20,290 nucleotides of DNA from a virus, in IMG/VR virus record IMGVR_UViG_3300048010_000543, positions 1 through 20,290 of that record; one strand, written 5' to 3'. The notes under the pieces are model-generated. The model had not been told where the DNA came from, made no database searches, and saw only the letters and a list, made by a program, of their open reading frames with translations. The stretch's first letter is position 1, and every line of letters starts with the position of its first letter. The position numbers and the translations under genes were made by a program. Shown here piece after piece: positions 4,400 to 19,903 of the stretch.

Positions 4400-4421
4400 T
4401 CAGATTATTTCGGAATGTCAA
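4394..4421 (-). promoter_or_regulatory. Early sigma70-type promoter P3 (leftward)
   Basis: TTGACA (4416-4421) and TATGAT (4394-4399), 16 bp apart on the minus strand, in the same extended element as P1 and P2. The TGA in TTGACA is the stop codon of the A-type carrier gene at 4418. An A-tract lies directly upstream of the -35 element, as in an UP element. Confidence 0.85.
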
Positions 4422-4774
4422 GAACTTTTTTTGTATGGTGTGAAAGATTCTCCGCAGCCGCATTGCTGACCGGATTGTCGAACAAAAATGAATCCCTGTT
4501 CAACGAGGTTCTTTGTAGAGAAGTCAATTGTCACGGGTCCAATAATTTCTTCAAATAAATCATTATCAACTAAGATCTTAATATCATTTGAAACAAAAGT
4601 CAAGTCATGCTCTTGAATATCAGCTTGAGTATTTGTTTCAAGCTCCCAACGCCAACCGGAACAGCCACCTTGATTTGCACTTACACGGAGATAGGTGTCA
4701 TCAAGATTTAAATTCTCTGATTCAAATGATTCAATGAATTTTTCTGCTGCTGTTGATGTTAATTCAATTTGCAT
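4418..4774 (-). CDS. A-type Fe-S cluster carrier (IscA/HesB/ErpA family), copy 1
   Basis: A 118-residue protein of the HesB/IscA family, which receives Fe-S clusters or iron from scaffolds such as IscU and passes them to target proteins. The three ligand cysteines are in place: Cys38 in NQGGCSGW, and Cys105 and Cys107 in QQCGCGESF. The spacing is 67 residues, against 64 in E. coli IscA (35/99/101), as I recall it. Start at ATG 4774 with GGAG upstream, inside the end of the HAD gene. A second, divergent copy lies at 9265 and an intein-split IscU at 7481. Cyanophages and pelagiphages are known to carry HesB/IscA-type genes. The C-terminus (YKKSS) runs into promoter P3. Confidence 0.95.
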   Translation of the reverse strand: MQIELTSTAAEKFIESFESENLNLDDTYLRVSANQGGCSGWRWELETNTQADIQEHDLTFVSNDIKILVDNDLFEEIIGPVTIDFSTKNLVEQGFIFVRQSGQQCGCGESFTPYKKSS

Positions 4775-6044: not shown

Positions 6045-6275
6045 TCAATATAAATCTTCTATGTAGTCGGGTTGAACATTAAAAGGTATGACAGTATATA
6101 CAACTTTTGATTTGCGATTTGCTTCAGAGGCCATTTTATGTTTGTATGCTGCATCTTCGTTTGTATATATTGCAGTTACTCCGCTTTCATTTTTCTTTTC
6201 CCACATTACTATATAAACTGTAAATGTTAATTTATATTCTGATAATAATGTGATAACATCATTCAAATTTGGCAT
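6045..6275 (-). CDS. Hypothetical protein, 76 aa
   Basis: The ATG at 6275 has GGAAG six bases upstream; a GTG at 6302 is less likely. The gene overlaps the end of the Hint-like gene by 17 bases. The protein begins MPNLNDVITLLSEYKLTF, then a strand (TVYIVMWEKKNESG), a charged helix (NEDAAYKHKMASEANRKSK) and another strand (VVYTVIPFNVQP), ending EDLY. The alternating strand-helix-strand pattern resembles a small ferredoxin-like fold, but there is no Fe-S motif. Another small protein with a comparable opening strand is at 6772. Function unknown. Confidence 0.6.
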   Translation of the reverse strand: MPNLNDVITLLSEYKLTFTVYIVMWEKKNESGVTAIYTNEDAAYKHKMASEANRKSKVVYTVIPFNVQPDYIEDLY

Positions 6276-6768
6276 TAAATTCTTCCATACGATCAATTTC
6301 ACTTTGACTTTGTTCCATCGTCAGTCCACTGACTAATAGACCAGAAGCCAAATAATAATTTAAAACACCATCAAGTCCTATATTATATAGTTTATATTGG
6401 TCACCTTCTTTTTCAAACTTTTTAAGTTGGTGTTCTTCAACAATACTCTCTTTGGTTAACACACTAAATGTTCCATGGTGTAAACCTTTAACTTTTTGTC
6501 CTATTTCAAGATTCTCAGCTTTGACTTGCACCGAGCCAATACCTGACTGATAGAATACGGTATCAAGTGCGCAAGTCAATACTTTTTCTACACCTTCAAA
6601 ACGAACTTTTATAAGTTGGTCCATAGATTTAAGAATAGTTTGTACATATGTTACTGTATGCACACCCATCTTAATACCATCAAGAGCAATAACTTGATCA
6701 CCTATTCTTAAATTTCGAACTTTAACTGCACCATCAGGTACATAGATTCGTGTTGATGGTCCTAACAT
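6259..6768 (-). CDS. Stand-alone degenerate Hint (hedgehog/intein-fold) protein
   Basis: A 169-residue protein whose first 147 residues follow the Hint fold from end to end. The opening block is STRIYVPDGAVKVRNLRIGD (residues 5-24), then QVIALDG. A block-B-like stretch is LTCALDTVFYQSG (64-76), a second IGD-like turn is NLEIGQKV (87-93), and a C-terminal block-F/G piece is YNIGLDGVLNYYLASGLLVSG (128-148). Splicing residues are gone: no Cys or Ser at position 1, no TxxH histidine, and LVSG where active inteins have VHN or similar. A short acidic tail (EQSQSEIDRMEEFNAKFE) follows instead of an extein. It should therefore not splice. It may be a domesticated intein or a Hint-fold structural or binding protein. 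An intact mini-intein is 1 kb away in IscU. Confidence 0.7.
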   Translation of the reverse strand: MLGPSTRIYVPDGAVKVRNLRIGDQVIALDGIKMGVHTVTYVQTILKSMDQLIKVRFEGVEKVLTCALDTVFYQSGIGSVQVKAENLEIGQKVKGLHHGTFSVLTKESIVEEHQLKKFEKEGDQYKLYNIGLDGVLNYYLASGLLVSGLTMEQSQSEIDRMEEFNAKFE

Positions 6769-7024: not shown

Positions 7025-7484
7025 TCTTTTCTAAAAGCATTTTTCTCAACTCTCCTATTTGAGAATATAATTCATCAATCTTTGAATGCAAATATTCATC
7101 ACCTTCAATTTGTGGATAAAATTGTCTTGCTTCTTCCATTGTAAGAGAAGATTCGTATACGTCAAATCTTAGTAATAGTTTACCCGCTACACTTAGGTCT
7201 GGATATTTCTTACCATAATATCCCGCAGTAAAACCTAATGACTTACGAAAATAATATTGATATTCAGAAGTCAGTGTTTCAATTTGTTTGATTACAGCAT
7301 TAAGCATTTCTTCAGCATGTATTTTTAATTCAGAAAGTGATGGTTTTTTCTCACGATTCCAATTTAAAAACCATTTCTGATCCATGCCAGATATTGCCTT
7401 GTGTACTAACTCAAAGTTAAAATCTTCAAGAACTATTGCTTTAAGTTTTCGAATCTCATGTATTCTATCACCATATAAATTCAT
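7020..7484 (-). CDS. Hypothetical protein coupled to IscU, 154 aa
   Basis: A 154-residue soluble protein. Its ATG overlaps the IscU stop by four bases (ATGA), so translation is coupled to IscU. The N-terminus is helical and charged (HEIRKLKAIVLEDFNFELVHK). A middle section (WFLNWNREKKPSLSELKIHAEEMLN) leads to Tyr-rich sequence (SEYQYYFRKSLGFTAGYYGKKYP). The C-terminus is a helix (YLHSKIDELYSQIGELRKMLLEKK) that could form a coiled coil. I see no cysteine motif of the kind expected in the Fe-S partners HscB, IscX or ferredoxin, so the link to IscU is positional only. Function unknown. Confidence 0.7.
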   Translation of the reverse strand: MNLYGDRIHEIRKLKAIVLEDFNFELVHKAISGMDQKWFLNWNREKKPSLSELKIHAEEMLNAVIKQIETLTSEYQYYFRKSLGFTAGYYGKKYPDLSVAGKLLLRFDVYESSLTMEEARQFYPQIEGDEYLHSKIDELYSQIGELRKMLLEKK

Positions 7485-8338
7485 AATGTTAAACTCTCTT
7501 TCTTTTTACGGTAGTCAGCAATTGCTGCTTTGATTGCATCTTCTGCCAAAACAGAACAATGAATCTTCACAGGTGGTAAACTCAACTCTTCAACGATATC
7601 TTTATTACTGATCTCCATTGCATTATCAACTGTCTTACCTTTAATCCATTCAGTTGCCAATGAACTTGATGCAATCGCAGAACCGCAACCAAATGTTTTA
7701 AACTTTGCGTCAATAATCTTTTCATTATCATCTACTTCAATTTGAAGTTTCATTACATCACCACAATTTTTCACAACAACACCAGAATATACTTCATGAT
7801 CAAAATGTGTGATAATGATATAGTTATTTGTTTCTTCAACTTGTAATGTATAACAATCATCTTCAACTGGTGGTTCATCATAACAAGGCATTATTAAGCG
7901 ATGATTTGATTCAAAATCATATATGTCTGCATTAATTTCTGATTGAACACCTCTTACAAAATCAGAAGTTTTAATATCTTCAATTGCTTTATATCCATTT
8001 TCGACAGTAAGAAACTGATGATCCTTTGTTACACGAACTTTACGATCACCAATTTCATAAGTAAATAAATATTTTTTACCAGAATACACAACCTTCGCCA
8101 TTTTAAATTTATAAGTATCTTCATTTATACTATATGACCAAACATTAATTGTACGTTTAAGTGTATATGCTTCTTCCAATGAAATATATTGTTGAACTGG
8201 TGTATGTATTAACGTTTCTCCACCAAAGCATTCTGGCGCACCAACAAGACCAGTACCTACATTTTCTTTAGTTTTATCAAGAGATCCAACATTTTTTGGA
8301 TTGTCATAATGTTCCATAACTTCTTTAGAATAAGCCAT
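7481..8338 (-). CDS. iscU: IscU Fe-S scaffold protein interrupted by a mini-intein
   Basis: The frame encodes 285 residues: IscU N-part 1-36, intein 37-191, IscU C-part 192-285. IscU is the scaffold on which IscS-derived sulfur and iron form [2Fe-2S] clusters before transfer to carriers. Spliced, the protein is 130 residues (E. coli IscU has 128) with the ligands at standard numbers: Cys37 in APECGD (unspliced Cys192), Asp39, Cys63 in FGCGSA, Cys106 in IHCS, and the HscA-binding LPPVK at 99-103. The start ATG 8338 follows AGGAG. Unspliced protein cannot form the cluster site, since the loop before Cys37 is split. No IscS, HscA or HscB is in the window, so the host's would be needed. The downstream gene is coupled by ATGA overlap. 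Identification is very secure; splicing itself is inferred. Confidence 0.97.
   Translation of the reverse strand: MAYSKEVMEHYDNPKNVGSLDKTKENVGTGLVGAPECFGGETLIHTPVQQYISLEEAYTLKRTINVWSYSINEDTYKFKMAKVVYSGKKYLFTYEIGDRKVRVTKDHQFLTVENGYKAIEDIKTSDFVRGVQSEINADIYDFESNHRLIMPCYDEPPVEDDCYTLQVEETNNYIIITHFDHEVYSGVVVKNCGDVMKLQIEVDDNEKIIDAKFKTFGCGSAIASSSLATEWIKGKTVDNAMEISNKDIVEELSLPPVKIHCSVLAEDAIKAAIADYRKKKESLTL
7766..8230 (-). other. Mini-intein (155 codons) inside iscU
   Basis: The intein runs from Cys37 to Asn191 of the precursor. Block A begins CFGGETLIHTPV with the Cys1 nucleophile. Block B is RVTKDHQFLT with the TxxH residues Thr104 and His107. The block-F region is CYTLQVEETNNYIITH-like (about 162-177). 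Block G is GVVVKN, followed by Cys+1. The terminal Asn is present, but the penultimate His is replaced by Lys190, a change known in some active inteins. Only about 55 residues separate blocks B and F and no LAGLIDADG or HNH motif is seen, so there is no homing endonuclease. Codon boundaries fall cleanly at the extein junctions (GAPE / CGDV). Confidence 0.93.
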
Positions 8339-8345
8339 TAGTCTC

Positions 8346-9044
8346 CTAATCTGAATTTGATGAATAACCAGTAAGACTGAGAATCATCTGAAATAGATTA
8401 ATAAAATTAAGATATAATGAAAGTGCAAACTTAATACCATATCTCGGATCATTTGTTTCATAATACATCTCTTTTGCCATTTGTGTATCATATGCAGTAA
8501 GTCCTAAGAATAGAACAATACCTACAATTGAAATAACAAGTGCAAATACAGAACTTGCTAGCCAAATATTTAGAACACCAGCAATAATAATACCTACTAA
8601 ACCTACCAGTAGAAGGTTGCCCCAACCTGATAAATCTCGTTTAGTTACATAACCATATAAACTGGCAAAGCCAAATGTTAGTGATGTTGTAAGAAATGCC
8701 TCAACAATATTTGTTGATGAATAGATTGCAAATATACTACTGAGCGATAAACCCATTACTCCTACAAATGCATAATAAAAACTTGTGAGTGTTTCAATTG
8801 GCCAGTCTTGTCCTTTAAATGAATACCATAGAATCATTCCGAGTGGTGCTAAGAACACCAGCCACATGAACAATCCGCCACTAAAAATTGTAGAGACAAA
8901 ACCTGTTGAATATGTCAAGTAGGCAACCAAGGCACTTACGCCAAGACCACCTGCTGTATGATTATACATTGTTTGAAAGAATTTTCTTAATCCAACTTGA
9001 TCGGCCTGAGGAGTTGGATTGAGACTTGATTGTATCATTGACAT
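8346..9044 (-). CDS. Bax inhibitor-1 / YccA family membrane protein
   Basis: A 232-residue polytopic membrane protein with about seven hydrophobic segments, starting at ATG 9044 behind a strong AAGGAGG. Family features are the N-terminal soluble lead with FFQTMYNHTAGGL, the segment VGVMGLSLSSIFAIYSS, and the C-terminal signature GLTAYDTQMAKEMYYE followed by ALSLYLNFINLFQMIL. BI-1/YccA proteins are calcium-leak or stress-related membrane proteins; E. coli YccA modulates the membrane protease FtsH. A phage copy could protect phage membrane proteins from FtsH or delay envelope damage, but this is inference. It lies eight bases upstream of iscU, and an AATAAATA motif about 31 bases before the start suggests late expression. 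Confidence 0.9.
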   Translation of the reverse strand: MSMIQSSLNPTPQADQVGLRKFFQTMYNHTAGGLGVSALVAYLTYSTGFVSTIFSGGLFMWLVFLAPLGMILWYSFKGQDWPIETLTSFYYAFVGVMGLSLSSIFAIYSSTNIVEAFLTTSLTFGFASLYGYVTKRDLSGWGNLLLVGLVGIIIAGVLNIWLASSVFALVISIVGIVLFLGLTAYDTQMAKEMYYETNDPRYGIKFALSLYLNFINLFQMILSLTGYSSNSD

Positions 9045-9245: not shown

Positions 9246-9265
9246 ACCTATCAAAAATAATAGGT
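9246..9265. repeat. 6-bp hairpin between A-type carrier 2 and the small basic gene
   Basis: ACCTAT and ATAGGT flank an 8-base A-rich loop, just beyond the stop of the carrier gene. It has no T-run and is AT-rich, so it is at best an mRNA processing or stability element. Confidence 0.25.
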
Positions 9266-9636
9266 CACCAAGTGGGTTTAAATACAGGTTCTTCTTGTTC
9301 TGGCATATCAACTTGAAAACTTATTCGGCAGCCACAACTCATCTTTGCAGCAGGATTTTCAAATTGTAATCCTCTTTTCGCCAATTCATAAGACCAATCA
9401 ATCACTGTATCTTTAATGAACAAATAACTTTTTTTATCTACAAGAACACATATACCTTCTGATTGAAATAATAAATCATGTCGACGTTTGGTGTCATCAA
9501 AATCCATTACATATGTGAAACCGCTACAACCACCAGCTTTCACACCAATGCGAATACAAACAGATTCAGGATCTTTTAATTCTGATTGCATTACTTTTTT
9601 AATTTCTTTTGCGGCAGTTTCTGTAAGAGATATCAT
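9265..9636 (-). CDS. A-type Fe-S cluster carrier (IscA/HesB family), copy 2
   Basis: A 123-residue protein starting at ATG 9636, which overlaps the stop of the upstream gene (ATGA); a GTG at 9642 is less likely. Ligand cysteines are Cys37 in VKAGGCSGF, and Cys101 and Cys103 in KMSCGCRISF, a 64-residue spacing as in E. coli IscA. The FENPAAK segment before the last pair is typical of the family (F.NP). It departs from the family where CGCG becomes CGCR, and it has a proline-rich tail (MPEQEEPVFKPTW). It is clearly divergent from copy 1, so the two are not a recent duplication. Close to iscU, it probably accepts clusters from it or from the host scaffold. Confidence 0.93.
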   Translation of the reverse strand: MISLTETAAKEIKKVMQSELKDPESVCIRIGVKAGGCSGFTYVMDFDDTKRRHDLLFQSEGICVLVDKKSYLFIKDTVIDWSYELAKRGLQFENPAAKMSCGCRISFQVDMPEQEEPVFKPTW

Positions 9637-10142
9637 ATCCACAAGTTACGATAATACTTACCGAACATCTTGAGTCCTTGATTGACAATCTCTTCATCTC
9701 GTCCATAGTTCCAATGATCTTCTGATATCAGTATAAATGTTTCAATCATTTGATCTAAAACATATTGCCATCGTGTATCAAGAAATTCAACGTCTGCTTC
9801 GTGTGGTGTTGTATTGTGTGCTTCATAACGCATATCTTCTGGCACATCTTCATCATCGACAAAAGGCACAGATATTTTATTATCTGCTTTGAAACGAATC
9901 AAACTTTCAAGTATTATATGTGATAATGACCAATCAAGAGAATATAAATCATGTTTTGAAATATGTACGATACGATGTTGAAATAGTTTATCTTTAACTG
10001 CATTTACAATCTTGATTAGAAAGTCATCCACTTCAGTCAACATTCGATACCACTGAGGTGAAATCTTTTTTTCTTCATACAATTTTTCAATAAAGTCGTA
10101 GAACAAAAATGATCGATTTGTATGACTTGTAAAAATAAACAT
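9633..10142 (-). CDS. Conserved phage-type hypothetical protein, 169 aa
   Basis: A 169-residue acidic, helical protein from ATG 10142. The central and C-terminal parts carry DTRWQYVLDQMIETFILISE, followed by an acidic HWNYGRDEEIVNQGLKMFGK segment. I recall this arrangement (RW...LdeMI..F) in uncharacterised proteins of T4-like and other large phages. No catalytic motif or membrane span is visible. The N-terminal MFIFTSHTNRSFLFYDF is hydrophobic but not a signal peptide. It is coupled to A-type carrier 2 by an ATGA overlap and lies in the leftward unit that begins with the peroxiredoxin at promoter P5. Function unknown. Confidence 0.75.
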   Translation of the reverse strand: MFIFTSHTNRSFLFYDFIEKLYEEKKISPQWYRMLTEVDDFLIKIVNAVKDKLFQHRIVHISKHDLYSLDWSLSHIILESLIRFKADNKISVPFVDDEDVPEDMRYEAHNTTPHEADVEFLDTRWQYVLDQMIETFILISEDHWNYGRDEEIVNQGLKMFGKYYRNLWI

Positions 10143-10535: not shown

Positions 10536-11057
10536 TTAATCAAAAAGGTTATCAAGAATACTTTCAGGATTAGTGACAGAATATGGATCAGATAAACAAT
10601 TATCTTGATACCCTGGTTCAACAAACCACTGAGTAATTTTCAAATTATCTACGACCACTGCATATCTCCATGATCGCATTCCAAAGCATTCAGGTCTTTT
10701 CTCAACAAGCATTCCCATCTGTCGAGTAAACTCACCATTACCGTCAGGAATAACTTTAACATTTTTTAAATTTTGGTCTTTTGACCATGCATTCATAACG
10801 TAAGAATCATTTACTGACATGCAATATACGGCATCAAATCCTTTGTCGACAAATGCATCATATAATTTTTCAAATGTTGGTAATTGCATTGTGCTACAGG
10901 TAGGTGTGAATGCGCCGGGCAATGAAAACAATAAAACTTTTCTGTTTGCGAAATAATCATTTGTGTTCATTTCTTGCCAACGAAACGGATTATCTCCACC
11001 AACTGCTTCGTCACGGACTCGAGTATTGAATTTTACAAAAGGTACTGTTTCTCTCAT
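10536..11057 (-). CDS. Prx5-like peroxiredoxin
   Basis: A 173-residue thiol peroxidase that reduces peroxides using a thiol donor. The peroxidatic motif is PGAFTPTC (residues 47-54, Cys54). Family features follow: the CMSVNDSYVMNAW segment (79-91), an RQMGMLVEKRPECFGMRSWRY-like stretch trimmed around residues 117-132 with the conserved RSWRY, and a C-terminal NPESILDNL. A further Cys lies near 152 (QDNCLSDP) and might act as resolving thiol. The start ATG 11057 follows AAGGAG. It is the first gene of the unit read from the near-perfect promoter P5, so it is likely made early. With the Fe-S proteins downstream it suggests protection of clusters or general oxidative defence during infection. 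Confidence 0.93.
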   Translation of the reverse strand: MRETVPFVKFNTRVRDEAVGGDNPFRWQEMNTNDYFANRKVLLFSLPGAFTPTCSTMQLPTFEKLYDAFVDKGFDAVYCMSVNDSYVMNAWSKDQNLKNVKVIPDGNGEFTRQMGMLVEKRPECFGMRSWRYAVVVDNLKITQWFVEPGYQDNCLSDPYSVTNPESILDNLFD

Positions 11058-11575: not shown

Positions 11576-12625
11576 TTACTTAGATGAATGTTTAGCAATT
11601 AATCGACGAGCTTTCGTGACTAATGCTTTACCATCAATACCTTCACTCTCAACTTCTTGAATCCATTTTTGAACAACAGGTTCAAGTTTGACACGAAAGG
11701 CTTCCGTTTCTTCTTCAGTCAAAACAATATGTTCTTTTCGAAATATCTTCATCAAGTCAATACCTCTTTGTTCATCATCTTTCCACATCTGACCAATTTC
11801 TCTCAGAAACTTTTCTCCAGATGCTTGACGAAACGCTTTTTGGATGTCGGGAGACAAACTGTTCCACTTATCTTTGTTCATTGAAACTTGAAAGACAACA
11901 CTTCCAAATCTTGTCTGATTGTGACCTTCTGTAAAATGTGAAACATGCTGCTCAAGTTTCAGCAAAGGATTCACATTGAAAGGAATGAACACAATCGTTG
12001 CTGTTCTTCTTTGAAGTGTTTGTGGAATTAAGTTGACGGGAACACTCACTGGCACTCCTTTTAACTCATCAATCACCCAAACACCTGTTCGGCTGGGAAT
12101 GCGAGTTCTTTTGCCACGAAAGTCTTCTGGTTTGCGAACAGGAAATCCTTTTGATTGAATTGCTTGACCTTGATGAACATGTAGAAACATCACTTCAAGA
12201 TTTTGGCGGTCATAATCTTGTTTCAATTCACTGTCAAACATCTCTTTCATTGCTAAATTTGTAGCAATCGGATCATTTGTGTGAACAAATGGCAACTCAA
12301 AGACTTCTGAACTTTGAAAATCTTTACCACTATATCCATTGATTGTCCAAACAAGGTCGGCGATTTTACCTTCACCTGCTTGTTTTGCCAAATCGCCTGG
12401 TTTTCCACCAAGTCTCATGCCCGGAACAATTACAATGTTTACTTTGTCTTTGCTCAATCTCTCAACTTCTCTTGCCCAAGGCTCAAGCATTTTTGTTTGT
12501 GCCGGTTCTTTTGGTGAAAAGAAGTGATGTAGCATGAGCTTGATTGGTTCATGACTACCTGCCAATACATTGTCAGGTATAAAAATGTATACCAGCAACA
12601 TTAACGATACAATTAAGTATTTCAT
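11576..12625 (-). CDS. TRAP transporter substrate-binding protein (DctP family)
   Basis: The best start is ATG 12625 (MKYLIVSLMLLVYIF), directly behind AAAGGA; a longer frame to 12709 would overlap the previous gene and bury the signal peptide. The 349-residue protein has a signal peptide cleaved near NVLA/GS. The mature domain shows DctP features: a LEPWAREVERLSKDKVNIVI strand region, GKIADLVWTINGYS, ELPFVHTNDP, and the ligand-binding segment FRGKRTRIPSRTG followed by VPVSVPVNLIPQTLQRR. DctP proteins bind organic acids or similar solutes in the periplasm and deliver them to a DctQM permease. No permease gene is in the window, so it would need the host's. The usual LQ.G..DG segment reads LQRRTATIVF, an unusual variation. 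Confidence 0.9.
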   Translation of the reverse strand: MKYLIVSLMLLVYIFIPDNVLAGSHEPIKLMLHHFFSPKEPAQTKMLEPWAREVERLSKDKVNIVIVPGMRLGGKPGDLAKQAGEGKIADLVWTINGYSGKDFQSSEVFELPFVHTNDPIATNLAMKEMFDSELKQDYDRQNLEVMFLHVHQGQAIQSKGFPVRKPEDFRGKRTRIPSRTGVWVIDELKGVPVSVPVNLIPQTLQRRTATIVFIPFNVNPLLKLEQHVSHFTEGHNQTRFGSVVFQVSMNKDKWNSLSPDIQKAFRQASGEKFLREIGQMWKDDEQRGIDLMKIFRKEHIVLTEEETEAFRVKLEPVVQKWIQEVESEGIDGKALVTKARRLIAKHSSK

Positions 12626-12629
12626 TTTT

Positions 12630-12842
12630 TTATCCTTTTCGTTCGGGTAGGCCCTTGTGTTTTGTCTTTGCGAAGTCTTTGGCGTCTGATTTTTTAATGC
12701 TCTTTGCAATCTTCTTCACTTCATCTGGTGGGTCCTTTAGCTTACCTTTTTGATAAGCATGGACCATACCAAATAAACGTTGTTGTGATTTTGAAAGAGC
12801 CTTCTCTTCGATATAATGAATAAAATCATTAAATGATTTCAT
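12630..12842 (-). CDS. DUF3008-like small protein with capsid-targeting-like leader
   Basis: A 70-residue basic protein. Residues 1-13 (MKSFNDFIHYIEE) match a leader shared with the next two genes upstream and end in I-E-E, fitting the (I/L)-x-E cleavage rule of T4 prohead protease gp21. The remaining part, from SKSQQRLFGMVHAYQKGK through EVKKIAKSI to DAKDFAKTKHKGLPER, matches the DUF3008 pattern as I know it, found in phages and bacteria. In T4 such leaders (for example MKTYQEFIAE of internal proteins) direct proteins into the prohead and are then cut off. The mature protein would be a small basic packaged protein. Transcription probably starts at the late promoter at 13349. The stop lies four bases before the TRAP-protein ATG. 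Confidence 0.75.
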   Translation of the reverse strand: MKSFNDFIHYIEEKALSKSQQRLFGMVHAYQKGKLKDPPDEVKKIAKSIKKSDAKDFAKTKHKGLPERKG

Positions 12843-13106
12843 TTATTTCGAAAGTCCTAGTTCAACACGTTTTTTCATACCATCGATTTCTTTTGACGGA
12901 ATTTCGGGATGTGACCTTTTGTAGATGTCTAATTGCAAATTAGCCCATGCTTCTGCACGGTCTGTATCTTGCATTTTCTTAGCCTTTTCAAGTATCTTTT
13001 TGACCAGTTGCATTTGATTTGGTCTTAGATCTGGTCCATCTTTTTGTAAAGAAAGTAAGCTAAATTTTTCTTCAAGTTGTTGCTTAAACTGTTTAAAAGA
13101 TATCAT
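12843..13106 (-). CDS. Small basic protein with capsid-targeting-like leader, 87 aa
   Basis: An 87-residue protein whose first 13 residues (MISFKQFKQQLEE) align without gaps to the leaders of both neighbours: Phe4, Phe7, Leu11 and Glu13 are the shared positions, and L-E-E fits the gp21-type cleavage rule. The rest is charged and helical (PNQMQLVKKILEKAKKMQ, then AWANLQLDIYKRSHPE). The ATG overlaps the upstream stop (ATGA) and the gene abuts the next ATG, so the three leader genes form one unit. The mature sequence belongs to no family I know. Packaging into the head is inferred from the leader only. Confidence 0.7.
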   Translation of the reverse strand: MISFKQFKQQLEEKFSLLSLQKDGPDLRPNQMQLVKKILEKAKKMQDTDRAEAWANLQLDIYKRSHPEIPSKEIDGMKKRVELGLSK

Positions 13107-13306
13107 CTTCCATATCTATGCATAGGGTTATCATCACCGTCGAGGTCCATGCTTAGGCGTGAACTACCAGTTTTCTTTAGAATTTTTTCAGCACGTTCTC
13201 TTTTCTTTTCTTTTGCCAATTCTTCTTTACTTGGTTCTGCCTTTGCGCCTAAACGATCAAAAACGCCCTCAAATATTTCTTCTTTGAACTCTTTAAATGT
13301 CTTCAT
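13103..13306 (-). CDS. Small charged protein with capsid-targeting-like leader, 67 aa
   Basis: A 67-residue protein opening MKTFKEFKEEIFE followed by GVFDRLG. The first ten residues resemble the T4 internal-protein leader (MKTYQEFIAE), and I-F-E before Gly14 is a good gp21-type cleavage site. The remainder is highly charged (PSKEELAKEKKRERAEKILK) and ends with SMDLDGDDNPMHRYGR. It is the first gene after the TATAAATA motif at 13349-13356, about 43 bases upstream. Together with the two following genes it forms a late-type unit. Function unknown; a head-packaged protein is the best inference. Confidence 0.7.
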   Translation of the reverse strand: MKTFKEFKEEIFEGVFDRLGAKAEPSKEELAKEKKRERAEKILKKTGSSRLSMDLDGDDNPMHRYGR

Positions 13307-13348: not shown

Positions 13349-13356
13349 TATTTATA
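13349..13356 (-). promoter_or_regulatory. T4-type late promoter (TATAAATA, leftward)
   Basis: TATAAATA on the minus strand is an exact match to the T4 late -10 consensus. A second overlapping match, GATAAATA, is at 13355-13362. The gene at 13306 begins about 43 bases further on. The gap of 54 bases between genes holds nothing else. Confidence 0.65.
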
Positions 13357-13360
13357 TTTA

Positions 13361-14185
13361 TCAAATAAAATTTAAACTAAAGCTATTCATTAAATAAAAA
13401 CGACCGTTTTTTTCAAACTCTTCCACAGGTGTGCTTGCTTTGTATTTCGAAACACGATGTGGTGTGTTCGCTGGATATATAAATGCTGAGTTTTTTTGTC
13501 CTGGTGATGTCATAATTTCTGTATATGAATCTTGCCAATCATTTCGTGTTTCAAGATTTATAAAATTAAAACGTCCAAGCATTTTTTCAAGTTCTACCTT
13601 TGAGTTTTGTCTGCGATCTTTTTCAGTAGTATTATAAAGAGAAGTTCCAAATCCATCATTCATGTATACAAGCATAACAAAAGGTATAGATCTGTCTTGA
13701 GGTATTGGTTGATTTAAATCAAACATACCTCCAGCTTCGTCATCTTGATGTGGTTGCATTTCAATATAATGCATATCATACCAAGCTTTTGTGAAAAATG
13801 ATGATGTAAAATGAAACTCTTGATTTCTTTTTTCGTGATGTGCTACAAGGTCATTTGGTAAATCAGTAACTTCTGTTACAAACGATGCCACATGACTAGT
13901 ATAGTCACCTGGTAATTGCCAATGAGATCGATATAAGTATGCGGCATTATTTAAGTTTTTATTATAAGTATATGGAATTCTACAAACAAAATCATATACA
14001 GTATCAAAATTTAAAAATATATCTTTTACATGCCAACAAAAATTGCCATATTTTGTAACTCTATCACCTACATCATGCATATTCAACAAAAATGCTGTTT
14101 CGCAATATGTCAGTGGTAAAGGATATGGTGCCAATTCTTTATTTAAATCCGAGTCTTTCTCCATAACTAAATCTAATTCTTCCAT
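13361..14185 (-). CDS. DUF6445-like 2OG-Fe(II) oxygenase-type protein, copy 1
   Basis: A 274-residue protein starting at ATG 14185 with GAGG upstream. Iron-ligand-like residues are His146 and Asp148 in QPHQDDE and a distal His243 in NTPHRVSKYK; Arg262 in KNGRFYLMN would bind the 2-oxoglutarate. Other conserved parts are IPYTYNK (70-76), AAYLYRS (81-87), FTKAWYDMHY (131-140) and VYMNDGFGTSLY (173-184). These match DUF6445 as I know it, a family with the jelly-roll oxygenase layout. It is a diverged tandem copy of the next gene upstream, with all the motifs shared. The substrate is unknown; phage relatives could modify a protein or small molecule during infection. Confidence 0.78.
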   Translation of the reverse strand: MEELDLVMEKDSDLNKELAPYPLPLTYCETAFLLNMHDVGDRVTKYGNFCWHVKDIFLNFDTVYDFVCRIPYTYNKNLNNAAYLYRSHWQLPGDYTSHVASFVTEVTDLPNDLVAHHEKRNQEFHFTSSFFTKAWYDMHYIEMQPHQDDEAGGMFDLNQPIPQDRSIPFVMLVYMNDGFGTSLYNTTEKDRRQNSKVELEKMLGRFNFINLETRNDWQDSYTEIMTSPGQKNSAFIYPANTPHRVSKYKASTPVEEFEKNGRFYLMNSFSLNFI

Positions 14186-14189
14186 AATA

Positions 14190-15029
14190 TCACCTCTTAA
14201 ATATATGTGTTAACATAAAGTAAAACCTACCTTCTTTTTCGAATTCACTATAATCAATTCCTTGTTTATAATTTGATACTTTATGTGGACAACTCATTGG
14301 ATAAATTAACATTCGGTTTGGCTTACCTTCAATTGTTAATATCTCATCATAAAATTCTTTATAACCTAATTCATGTTCAAAAGCAATACAACTAAATGTT
14401 TTTGAAGCTGAATAATGTTCGATATCTTTTCGAGTTTTTTTATAGGCGTATAAAGAAGTACCAGGCCCATCATTAAGATAGACAATCATAACATAGAATT
14501 GTTCTTTCTCTTTACTAAGTATATAGTCACGAGGATCAACAGGTTTTAAATGATCGGCATCTTGATGTGGATCCATCATCATAAAATGTAAATCATACCA
14601 ATCTTTTGTAAAATAAGAAAATGTAGAATCTAAAACAATTGGGTAATCTTCCTTATTTTCAGTAACAAGATCTGAAATTTCTTTTGATTTTCTCGGACAA
14701 ATACCTACATCAGTTTGAAACAATTCACTAAAGAAGTCTATATATTGTTCAGCAATTGTATGTTCGATATGAATTGGACTACGATAAAGATATGCAGAAA
14801 AATTCAATCCGAATTTATCGTATGTGTAGGGAATTTTCTTAGAGAGGTTTTGAATATTTTCGAAGTCAAGAAAGAAATCATCAATTACAAAAACATGTTC
14901 TCCATATTGTGTGGTTCTTTCATCAACATGCTCACGATTGATTGTGAAAATACTTGAATGATATGTTGTAATTGATGGTAAAACTTTCTTTTGCTCACTA
15001 TCGCTGAGTACATTAAATTCTTTTTTCAT
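14190..15029 (-). CDS. DUF6445-like 2OG-Fe(II) oxygenase-type protein, copy 2
   Basis: A 279-residue paralogue of the gene to its left. The same motifs occur in order: IPYTYDK (66-72), SAYLYRS (78-84), FTKDWYDLHF (140-149), DPHQDAD with His155 and Asp157, VYLNDGPGTSLY (183-194), CPHKVSNYK with His249, and EKEGRFYFM with Arg268. All putative iron and co-substrate residues are therefore kept in both copies, which argues that both are active and have separate substrates. The start at 15029 is three bases from the stop of the upstream gene, and four bases separate it from copy 1. The large divergence outside the motifs suggests an old duplication or two separate acquisitions. Confidence 0.78.
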   Translation of the reverse strand: MKKEFNVLSDSEQKKVLPSITTYHSSIFTINREHVDERTTQYGEHVFVIDDFFLDFENIQNLSKKIPYTYDKFGLNFSAYLYRSPIHIEHTIAEQYIDFFSELFQTDVGICPRKSKEISDLVTENKEDYPIVLDSTFSYFTKDWYDLHFMMMDPHQDADHLKPVDPRDYILSKEKEQFYVMIVYLNDGPGTSLYAYKKTRKDIEHYSASKTFSCIAFEHELGYKEFYDEILTIEGKPNRMLIYPMSCPHKVSNYKQGIDYSEFEKEGRFYFMLTHIFKR

Positions 15030-17435: not shown

Positions 17436-17969
17436 ATGTCTGGACCATCTCTACTTTCAGTAAACAATGGAAATTTAGATAATAATTTCAGCCAGGTCAA
17501 CCGGTTTGAAATGTACTTCAGTGTGTTGCCGAACATTACATATACATTGAATGAAGTAAATTTACCGGGGTTGAACATCAACAACCCTCAGGTTGCCACA
17601 TTGTTCAATACAACATATCAAGGTGCAGACTCTGCACAATTTGACCAGTTGAATATTAATTTCATTGTTCAAGAAGACCTATCGAACTACTTTGAGATGC
17701 ATGATTGGATGAGAGCAATATCATTTCCACATAGCTTCGAAGATCGTAATGATCTAAAAAGATTTGAGGGTGATGAAAGTTATGGTATGTTAACTCTGAA
17801 TAATAGCTACAATCGTCCTCTGTTTCGTTTTCATTTCTATCATGTAATGCCTAACTCACTGACAGGATTAAATTTAATGACTTCAGATGCTTCTGAATTG
17901 ATTGCATCTGCTTCTTTTAACTTCACTATATATAAGAGAGAATTAGTTCCTTCACATGATTATTATTAA
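17436..17969 (+). CDS. Tail-tube-fold virion protein (gp19/gp54-like)
   Basis: A 177-residue protein, the first of the rightward block. Its pattern is that of myophage tail-tube and tube-initiator proteins: an opening NRFEMYFSVLP, TLNEVNLPGLNI (about 37-48), a strand region DQLNINFIVQEDLSNYFEMH leading to DWMRAISFPH (about 69-97), and a final strand SASFNFTIYKREL. In T4 the tube (gp19) and baseplate tube initiator (gp54) share this fold; length (T4 gp19 is 163 residues) fits better with a tube-type protein, but I cannot decide. The Shine-Dalgarno sequence is weak. Its promoter is probably the late motif at 17376. In T4, uvsW and uvsY also neighbour baseplate genes, which agrees with this order. 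Confidence 0.75.
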   Translation: MSGPSLLSVNNGNLDNNFSQVNRFEMYFSVLPNITYTLNEVNLPGLNINNPQVATLFNTTYQGADSAQFDQLNINFIVQEDLSNYFEMHDWMRAISFPHSFEDRNDLKRFEGDESYGMLTLNNSYNRPLFRFHFYHVMPNSLTGLNLMTSDASELIASASFNFTIYKRELVPSHDYY

Positions 17970-18451: not shown

Positions 18452-19903
18452 ATGAATAAGATCTTTATAAAGTTTCTCAACTGGAGTACTTGCCAACTTC
18501 AGACAGATGCTGGCATTGTACATGAGTTGAGTGATGTATTCTCATATTTTGTACCAAGTGCAAAATTTCATCCTAAGTTTAAAGCTAAGAAATGGGATGG
18601 TAAAATTAGACTGATTGACTCAAGGCGGCATCGTATGCCATTAGGTCTTGTACATCGTGTGAAAAATTATTGTAAGTATAAGGGTTATCAATTTGAATGT
18701 GACTTTGATATTGAACCTGTTGATTTTACAATGGAAGATGCACATGATTTGATTGAGGCACTTGAAATGCCATTTGAAGTTCGTGACTATCAAGCACAGG
18801 CTTTTGTTCATGCAGTTCAGAAACAAAGGTCTATTTTAGTTTCTCCAACTGGAAGTGGTAAATCAGCAATCATCTATCTACTGATGCGATTGTTCGAACA
18901 ATTAGAAAGAAATGTTTTAATGATCGTACCTACTGTGAATCTTGTAAGTCAGATGAAACAGGACTTCATTGACTATTCACCAAACTTTGCGCCTCTTGAT
19001 GTACAAGAAGTATATGCTGGTAAGACCAAAGAAGTGCAATCTCCGATCATGTTGTCAACTTGGCAAAGTTTACAGAATCTTGACAAGGATTGGTTTAAGC
19101 AATTTGATACTGTAGTTATTGATGAAACTCATTTAGCAACTGGTCAGACATTACAAAAGATTCTCAACTACTGTGAGAATGCAGATTTTCGAGTAGGCTT
19201 GACTGGGACATTGACAGGTGAGAAGGTTCATGAGATGTTACTCATCAGTACCATTGGTGAACCAAAGAAGATTATTTCAACTAGTGAACTTATCGACAAT
19301 AAGATGCTCAGTGATTTGAAGGTGAAATGTATCATCTTAGATCATAAAGATTCCCCACCCAAGATGAACTACAAGGAAGAGATCGACTATCTTATCAGTC
19401 ACCAGGCAAGGAATGACTTCATTATTAATCTGGCAAGGACATTGAAAGGTAACACGTTGATTCTATTCAATTATGTTGAGAATCACGGAATGGTTCTCTA
19501 TGATCAAGTTGAGAAAGTTATTAAAAATAAAAACATTTTCTTCATGTCCGGTGACACCAAAGCGGAACTCCGGGAGAATATAAGACAACATGTTCGAGAC
19601 AACCATGCAGACAACATCATTTTAGCAAGTAGTGGCGTCTTCTCAACAGGAGTTAATATTCCAGCACTTCACAATGTAATATTTGCCTCACCAACAAAAT
19701 CGAAAATTCGAGTCCTTCAATCTGTTGGTAGAATTCTGAGAAAACATGATTCAAAAGAGGTCGCCACTGTATATGACATTGCTGATCGTATATATCGAAA
19801 CAAAAAAAATTATGTATATTCCCACTTTGAGGAAAGATATAAGTATTATATTGAAGAAGATTTTGACATAAAGTATTATGAGCATTTATTAAAATCTGCT
19901 TGA
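18452..19903 (+). CDS. uvsW: UvsW DNA/RNA helicase
   Basis: A 483-residue superfamily 2 helicase (T4 UvsW has about 500). The N-terminal 100 residues match the UvsW DNA-binding lead (FHPKFKAKKWDGKIRLID). Helicase motifs are Walker A SPTGSGKS (131-138), Walker B DETH (224-227), motif III GLTGTL (249-254), an LASSGVFSTGVN segment (391-402) and motif VI QSVGRILRK (423-431) with the arginine finger. T4 UvsW unwinds R-loops and branched DNA and shifts replication from origin-dependent to recombination-dependent mode. The ATG follows the uvsY stop directly. The last codons overlap the -35 box of promoter P6. All motifs are intact. Confidence 0.97.
   Translation: MNKIFIKFLNWSTCQLQTDAGIVHELSDVFSYFVPSAKFHPKFKAKKWDGKIRLIDSRRHRMPLGLVHRVKNYCKYKGYQFECDFDIEPVDFTMEDAHDLIEALEMPFEVRDYQAQAFVHAVQKQRSILVSPTGSGKSAIIYLLMRLFEQLERNVLMIVPTVNLVSQMKQDFIDYSPNFAPLDVQEVYAGKTKEVQSPIMLSTWQSLQNLDKDWFKQFDTVVIDETHLATGQTLQKILNYCENADFRVGLTGTLTGEKVHEMLLISTIGEPKKIISTSELIDNKMLSDLKVKCIILDHKDSPPKMNYKEEIDYLISHQARNDFIINLARTLKGNTLILFNYVENHGMVLYDQVEKVIKNKNIFFMSGDTKAELRENIRQHVRDNHADNIILASSGVFSTGVNIPALHNVIFASPTKSKIRVLQSVGRILRKHDSKEVATVYDIADRIYRNKKNYVYSHFEERYKYYIEEDFDIKYYEHLLKSA

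Follow-up and report, generated by a model that had tools for sequence, protein, structure and literature searches.

Three consecutive genes of a phage placed among the marine T4-like myophages begin with leaders resembling the T4 capsid-targeting sequence

Introduction

The gp21 prohead protease site is [IL]-x-E, and the T4 internal proteins IPI, IPII and IPIII each begin with a short leader that has aromatic residues at positions 4 and 7 and ends at such a site. The original prediction for the DNA analyzed here gave MKTYQEFIAE as the start of the T4 internal proteins; this is correct for IPII and IPIII, but IPI starts with MKTFKEFTSTTTPVSTITE↓A (↓, cleavage position) and has a leader of 19 residues. 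In the T4 capsid-targeting sequence (CTS), residues 4 and 7 serve targeting to the core, and residues 8 and 10 serve processing (PMC9026906). The CTS is the only part shared by diverse T4-type internal proteins (PMC3012670), and those of T4 counter first-line host defences (PMC3012670, PMC9391042). Enzymes have also been reported in the virion proteomes of T4-like cyanophages, where their presence is unexplained and contamination has been suspected (PMC10665884).

Here, we describe three leader genes, p1, p2 and p3, in a 20,290 bp stretch of DNA (the window) that is the sole IMG/VR sequence for its virus record; no phage DNA near-identical to it was found. On sequence grounds, the phage is a member of the marine T4-like myophages because a gp3-like tail protein, UvsW and the start of a gp55-like sigma factor lie at the right end of the window. 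Its UvsW is only ~43% identical to those of the nearest named phages. In our preferred reading, p1–p3 most probably encode internal head proteins whose leaders act as capsid-targeting sequences and are cut off by a gp21-type protease.

Results

A 13-residue leader on three consecutive genes

Three consecutive minus-strand genes had been predicted to share the leader pattern M-x-[ST]-F-x-x-F-x-x-x-[IL]-x-E, and all three were recovered with the pattern in each (Table 1). The p1 and p2 ORFs overlap by 4 nt, and p3 begins on the base right after the p2 stop. F4 and F7 are present in every leader, and residues 11–13 read IFE, LEE and IEE, so each leader ends at a putative (I/L)-x-E site at residue 13, as had been proposed. 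The mature parts would be small and basic (6.1–8.6 kDa, pI 9.5–10.2). They had been called unrelated, and we likewise detected no significant similarity among them; the best pair, p2 and p3, aligned at 39% over 31 amino acids with an E value of 0.03 in a three-sequence search. No relatives of p1 or of the p2 mature part were found in phage records or IMG/VR.

Table 1. Features of the window discussed in the text (↓, cleavage position, predicted for p1–p3)
Feature	Description	Position	Strand	Evidence
DctP	DctP-type periplasmic substrate-binding protein	11576..12625 (ATG at 12625)	-	PF03480, E 4e-28
p3	ORF, 70 aa; leader MKSFNDFIHYIEE↓K and 57-aa Lys-rich DUF3008 module, pI 10.2	12630..12842	-	
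p3 domain	DUF3008-like domain, residues 15-69	12636..12800	-	phrog_30268, E 7e-19; PF11450; AlphaFold2
p3 leader	CTS-like; predicted protease site I-E-E↓K after residue 13	12804..12842	-	
p2	ORF, 87 aa; leader MISFKQFKQQLEE↓K and 74-aa basic mature part, pI 9.6	12843..13106	-	
p2 leader	CTS-like; predicted protease site L-E-E↓K after residue 13	13068..13106	-	
p1	ORF, 67 aa; leader MKTFKEFKEEIFE↓G and 54-aa basic mature part, pI 9.5	13103..13306	-	
p1 leader	CTS-like; predicted protease site I-F-E↓G after residue 13	13268..13306	-	
TATAAATA	Possible late promoter of the T4 type, 42 nt ahead of the p1 ATG	13349..13356	-	
gp3-like	T4 gp3-like tail completion protein, landmark	17436..17969	+	tblastn with HTVC008M and Syn9 gp3
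UvsW	Helicase, landmark placing the phage among marine T4-like phages	18452..19903	+	

These genes share with the T4 internal proteins the short N-terminal leader, the aromatics at 4 and 7, the [IL]-x-E end and the arrangement in which the leader is conserved while unrelated small basic mature proteins vary behind it. They differ in leader length, which is 10 or 19 residues in IPI–IPIII and 13 in p1–p3; I-x-E lies directly behind F7 in the 10-residue leader of IPII and IPIII, whereas p1–p3 have three extra residues between. The cargo is also non-homologous. The ejection proteins of SPN3US and phiKZ, as described, resemble p1–p3 in having an N-terminal propeptide with an inferred targeting role and a prohead protease site at x-x-E, but most of these propeptides exceed 100 residues and the cleavage motif is different (PMC5694885). 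Overall, the assignment of the p1–p3 leaders is well supported by sequence comparison.

The original prediction also placed the genes behind a late promoter. The octamer TATAAATA is indeed present upstream of p1, but it is weak as promoter evidence since the window contains 2 copies against 2.19 expected, and relatives have only TATAAATT at its place. In the related 146.5 kb genome G026, an ORF starts no more than 80 nt downstream of 12 of 28 TATAAATA sites versus 4 of 28 for the reversed octamer, a difference too weak to rely on. We rejected TATAAATA as a sign of late expression because its frequency in the window is not above chance; as a late promoter of p1–p3, it is suggestive at most.

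The leader is rare and sits at gene starts

Within the window, the strict pattern was matched by the p1–p3 ORFs only, and it occurred at one of 44,045 internal positions in the S-CREM2 proteome. A profile was built from 16 leaders, drawn from T4, from cyanophages and from relatives of the window phage. When three residues were skipped behind residue 7, the p1–p3 leaders scored 17.8–19.4 on it; a score of at least 12 was reached at 3 of 43,846 internal positions. Whole genomes were then scanned, with the scanned genome held out of profile training each time, and most matches coincided with a first ATG. This was so for eight of the nine in G026, where the 10-residue register of T4 predominated, and the same ORFs read from residue 11 (+10 residues) gave none. 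There was no match in the T7-like cyanophage P-SSP7 and no clear match at any annotated start of HTVC008M.

T4 itself yielded a side observation. With T4 held out, the 54-amino-acid hypothetical protein gp61.1 (AF158101 18966–19130; locus L140), which starts MKTFKEFIKE↓D, scored 18.3 on the profile, and its sequence makes it a candidate for an internal head protein not yet catalogued in T4.

Cargo varies behind a conserved leader in relatives

UvsW at 78–99% identity was found in eight IMG/VR contigs, and six of these have a p3 orthologue ~5 kb upstream of the UvsW gene, encoded, like p3 itself, on the minus strand. The orthologues begin MKRYSEFWEVILE↓K or MKSFKEFQEVILE↓K ahead of DUF3008. The gene before them begins MKSFKLFLDQITE↓A or MKPFKQFIEEITE↓A, and its remainder varies among the relatives and differs from p2. 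Each of the four leaders spans 13 residues; the free positions vary, and the aromatic at 4, F7, [IL]11 and E13 are kept. Judged from these comparisons, the leader is modular, with the 13-residue element retained at the locus and one mature part apparently replaced. Other leader genes of the lineage follow the exact T4 10-residue register (MKSFNQFITE, MKSFHSFITE, MKTFNQFLIE and MLPFKSFLTE), so both lengths coexist in one lineage, as they do in T4 (10 and 19). In one relative, L143, four consecutive genes carry a leader.

These data bear on whether the leader could be a functionless likeness, produced by chance or by a start region that was recently duplicated in a genome rich in AT and Lys. The leaders are Lys- and Phe-rich, like the local coding sequence, which speaks for such an origin; however, three of three consecutive genes carry the pattern against a background of ~7e-5 per position, and it is kept in relatives at 78% UvsW identity. 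The relatives largely refute this explanation, and we regard its probability as negligible.

A 205-amino-acid leader protein is encoded in G026 (144255–144872; L111:4255–4872; MKTFNQFLIE) and in L143 (L143:13954–14574; MKSFSRFLTE). By eye it is like a kinase N-lobe, and its sole profile match is phrog_4301 (unknown function). Kinases are also present in other cyanophage virions.

Leader-bearing proteins in cyanophage virions

A virion protein list has been published for the T4-like cyanophage S-CREM2 (PMC10665884 Table 3). The 199 annotated CDS in the first 150 kb of this phage were translated and scored against a leader profile trained on other phages, with S-CREM2 left out. Five CDS were far ahead, at 12.3–20.5 bits compared with 2.6 for the next best, and all five products are in the published virion proteome: gp154 (MKNFSSFLTE; cytidylyltransferase), gp14 (MKRFDAFLTE; APH-like kinase), gp13 (MKDLHSFLTE), gp6 (MKDFDSFLEE; SAM hydrolase) and gp136 (MQTFSMFFSE). 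The 4-bit mark was exceeded by 5 of the 26 virion proteins that do not belong to the known structural set and by none of the 155 non-virion CDS (p = 4e-5, which is optimistic because the profile was built after the S-CREM2 leaders had been seen). A leader common in non-virion proteins, which would have counted against the original prediction, is therefore not what S-CREM2 contains. With a looser regular expression, five of six matches were in virions (p = 0.002 versus all CDS), the non-virion match being gp175. The association concerns the 10-residue layout only and five proteins, and the non-structural virion proteins, taken as a population, showed no elevated scores relative to the rest (p = 0.21). 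Only a few proteins account for the signal; that a leader is absent from most virion proteins is in line with expectation.

Purified S-CREM2 virions yielded 19 peptides for gp6 and 21 for gp14, and the authors cautioned that such proteins in the list could be contaminants, with poor separation from virions as an alternative explanation (PMC10665884). Another protein in the list, gp12, is annotated Cas9/Csn1 and contains LRFASFMAE↓A behind 16 extra residues; S-CRM01 g128 has a similar layout. Cytidylyltransferases have been detected in virions of S-SCSM1 (PMC9602691) and S-SZBM1 (PMC9146016), and these begin MKSFLQFLKE↓A and MRFRQFIIE↓A, respectively. The leader is also found on the cytidylyltransferase homologues of P-SSM2, Syn9, S-CRM01 and S-SCSM2R. 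The five S-CREM2 proteins, S-SCSM1 ORF91 and S-SZBM1_140 thus follow the same leader logic as p1–p3, in or near the T4 register, and have been seen in virions by mass spectrometry. Their leaders have 10 residues (9 in S-SZBM1_140) rather than 13, and the cargo consists mostly of larger enzymes (kinase, SAM hydrolase, cytidylyltransferase), unlike the small p1–p3. Within the portions of the open-access literature available to us, we found no paper that ties these virion proteins to a targeting leader; for CTS and cyanophage together, the open-access literature returned a T4 review only.

The leader might also be an N-terminal docking helix for some other phage complex, such as the replisome, the membrane or a host target, with an incidental likeness to T4, a reading favored by the fact that most leader genes have no assigned function. 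Yet the five top-scoring S-CREM2 CDS all encode virion proteins, the leaders end at the gp21 site [IL]-x-E and the leader profile matched none of the annotated replication genes in HTVC008M, Syn9 or S-CREM2, which makes such a helix very unlikely.

A different N-terminal likeness was seen in Syn9 gp190 (L090:4429–4953), S-SCSM1 ORF97 (L121:9122–9307) and S-CREM2 gp160 (L093:28342–29235), each of which starts with a close copy of the N-terminal arm of mature gp23, the major capsid protein. In Syn9, the arm reads TTGYTGGDAATGPTAGYDPVM in gp190 and TTGYTGGDTVTGPVAGFDPVL in gp23. The S-SCSM1 and S-CREM2 proteins are listed or annotated as virion proteins.

The mature part of p3 is a DUF3008 module

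p3 matches phrog_30268 over most of the domain (residues 11–69), with the invariant columns aligned, and misses the curated cut-off of DUF3008 (PF11450) by 0.1 bit (23.9 versus 24). It is 59–71% identical to other phage DUF3008 members and aligns with their invariant S-x-QQ...TKH..LP core. AlphaFold2 predicted three high-confidence helices for the mature part and a low-confidence helix (residues 4–14) for the leader. No related solved structure was found by sequence or by fold, a BFVD fold search with p3 returned mainly other cyanophage proteins, none at E ≤ 0.001, and no paper on DUF3008 was found in the open-access literature.

DUF3008 relatives are common in marine viruses and, unlike p3, mostly have no leader; they either stand alone, starting MPAxSK, or lie behind other sequence inside larger proteins. 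Where the domain is not N-terminal, [ILVMF]-x-E stands right before it in 36 of 38 distinct contexts, and P1 is E in all 38, whereas the same test shifted by 1–8 residues matched 0–6 of 38. The predicted cut would leave KAxSK near the stand-alone start (PAxSK), so the pattern fits a released module. A protease-type site at this position is consistent with module release, but the E may be conserved for another reason.

S-SCSM1 ORF93 (L121:7627–7836) is a stand-alone DUF3008 protein annotated "virion protein", which we read as mass-spectrometry detection because such notes in the S-CREM2 record match the published table. ORF93 also has a leader-like element at its C terminus (...KKKRTFKEFLEYIE, ending at the stop), and KKKTYEEFVT follows DUF3008 in two IMG/VR loci (L028 and L034). 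A C-terminal leader element was rejected as a general DUF3008 rule, being limited to S-SCSM1 and these two loci.

The composition of p1–p3 raises the question of whether they are prohead core peptides of the gp67/gp68 kind, which would use the same docking leader but act in the scaffold and be largely digested. They are small and Lys/Glu-rich, a further I-L-E occurs in p2 and an L-P-E near the end of p3, and DUF3008 is often one segment of a larger, precursor-like protein behind a protease-type site. Against this, T4 gp67 and gp68 start without the leader, the S-CREM2 leader enzymes came from purified virions with many peptides and the stand-alone DUF3008 protein of S-SCSM1 is annotated a virion protein; we therefore consider core peptides unlikely.

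The protease and the head module

At the aligned gp23 cleavage position, T4 has FLTE↓A, Syn9 ILTE, HTVC008M FLGE and S-CREM2 LLTE, so L-x-E is kept. gp21 (S77) is annotated in HTVC008M, Syn9 and S-CREM2 and was found in 9 of 20 DUF3008-carrying virus contigs. Neither the window nor ten related contigs yielded a gp21 homologue, no gp23 was detected in eight of these contigs and no HK97-type protease (S78) in the related contigs; two scans aimed at contigs reaching the head module found leader genes and no gp21. gp17, gp18 and gp20 are absent too from the examined contigs of the lineage, which lack the gp13–gp23 stretch, and the gp21 gap is therefore probably missing sequence rather than absence from the phage. 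We infer the protease link in the window phage.

Discussion

The original prediction proposed p1–p3 as internal head proteins by likeness to the T4 capsid-targeting sequence. It is strengthened by the modular leader, its recurrence in the T4 register and the match with S-CREM2 virions and, in addition, by the virion annotation of the S-SCSM1 homologue of the p3 mature domain. By homology with T4, we infer that the proteins dock, are cut at residue 13, remain in the head and are ejected. Each would dock on the prohead scaffold core through Phe4 and Phe7, which would lie on the same side of a short helix, and the shell would close around the docked proteins. A gp21-type prohead protease would then cut after [IL]-x-E at residue 13, and the released small basic protein would stay with the packaged DNA and probably be ejected with it. 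The cargo would differ by gene and by phage, in p3 being the Lys-rich DUF3008 module. Its role in the host is most likely DNA binding or counter-defence, by analogy with T4 IPI and IPIII.

Across marine T4-like phages, head cargo appears to be predictable from the leader. We see about an even chance that the leader is a general packaging code of these phages for variable injected effectors (kinases, SAM hydrolase, the Cas9-annotated nuclease, cytidylyltransferases and DUF3008 peptides) and that DUF3008 is a head-DNA peptide that the prohead protease also excises from larger precursors. If so, the injected cargo of uncultured ocean myophages could be read from sequence. For the cyanophage virion enzymes, a T4-type leader on several of them offers both a mechanism and a prediction, namely that leader-bearing proteins are loaded into the head. 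Given the role of T4 internal proteins against host defences, the tag also singles out candidates for counter-defence in unculturable phages. The widespread, little-studied DUF3008 family, too, thereby gains a first functional hypothesis.

Other genes in the window

The DctP gene starts 4 nt past the p3 stop and encodes an apparent signal peptide and no leader; it is an operon neighbor of the leader genes that stands outside the tag system. No relatives of it were found in IMG/VR. This TRAP-type protein is phage encoded, directly after the leader genes, and is not at the matching place in the relatives L094–L099.

A minus-strand cluster in the window (4418–4774, 9265–9642, 10536–11057 and 8346–9044) holds an Fe-S/redox set that is unusual for a phage, comprising two IscA-type Fe-S proteins, a peroxiredoxin-like protein and a Bax1-inhibitor membrane protein. 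At 7481–8338 (minus strand), a phage IscU/NifU_N protein is split by an intein-like Hint segment: PF01592 matches in two stretches with PF14890 between, and the insertion precedes the CGDVM cysteine. A stand-alone Hint-domain protein lies near this intein at 6259–6768 (minus strand), with weak PT-HINT/Hint_2 matches. Just upstream of the leader operon, two adjacent minus-strand ORFs (13361–14185 and 14190–15029) both match phrog_1644 ("minor coat protein"), and one of them is DUF6445.
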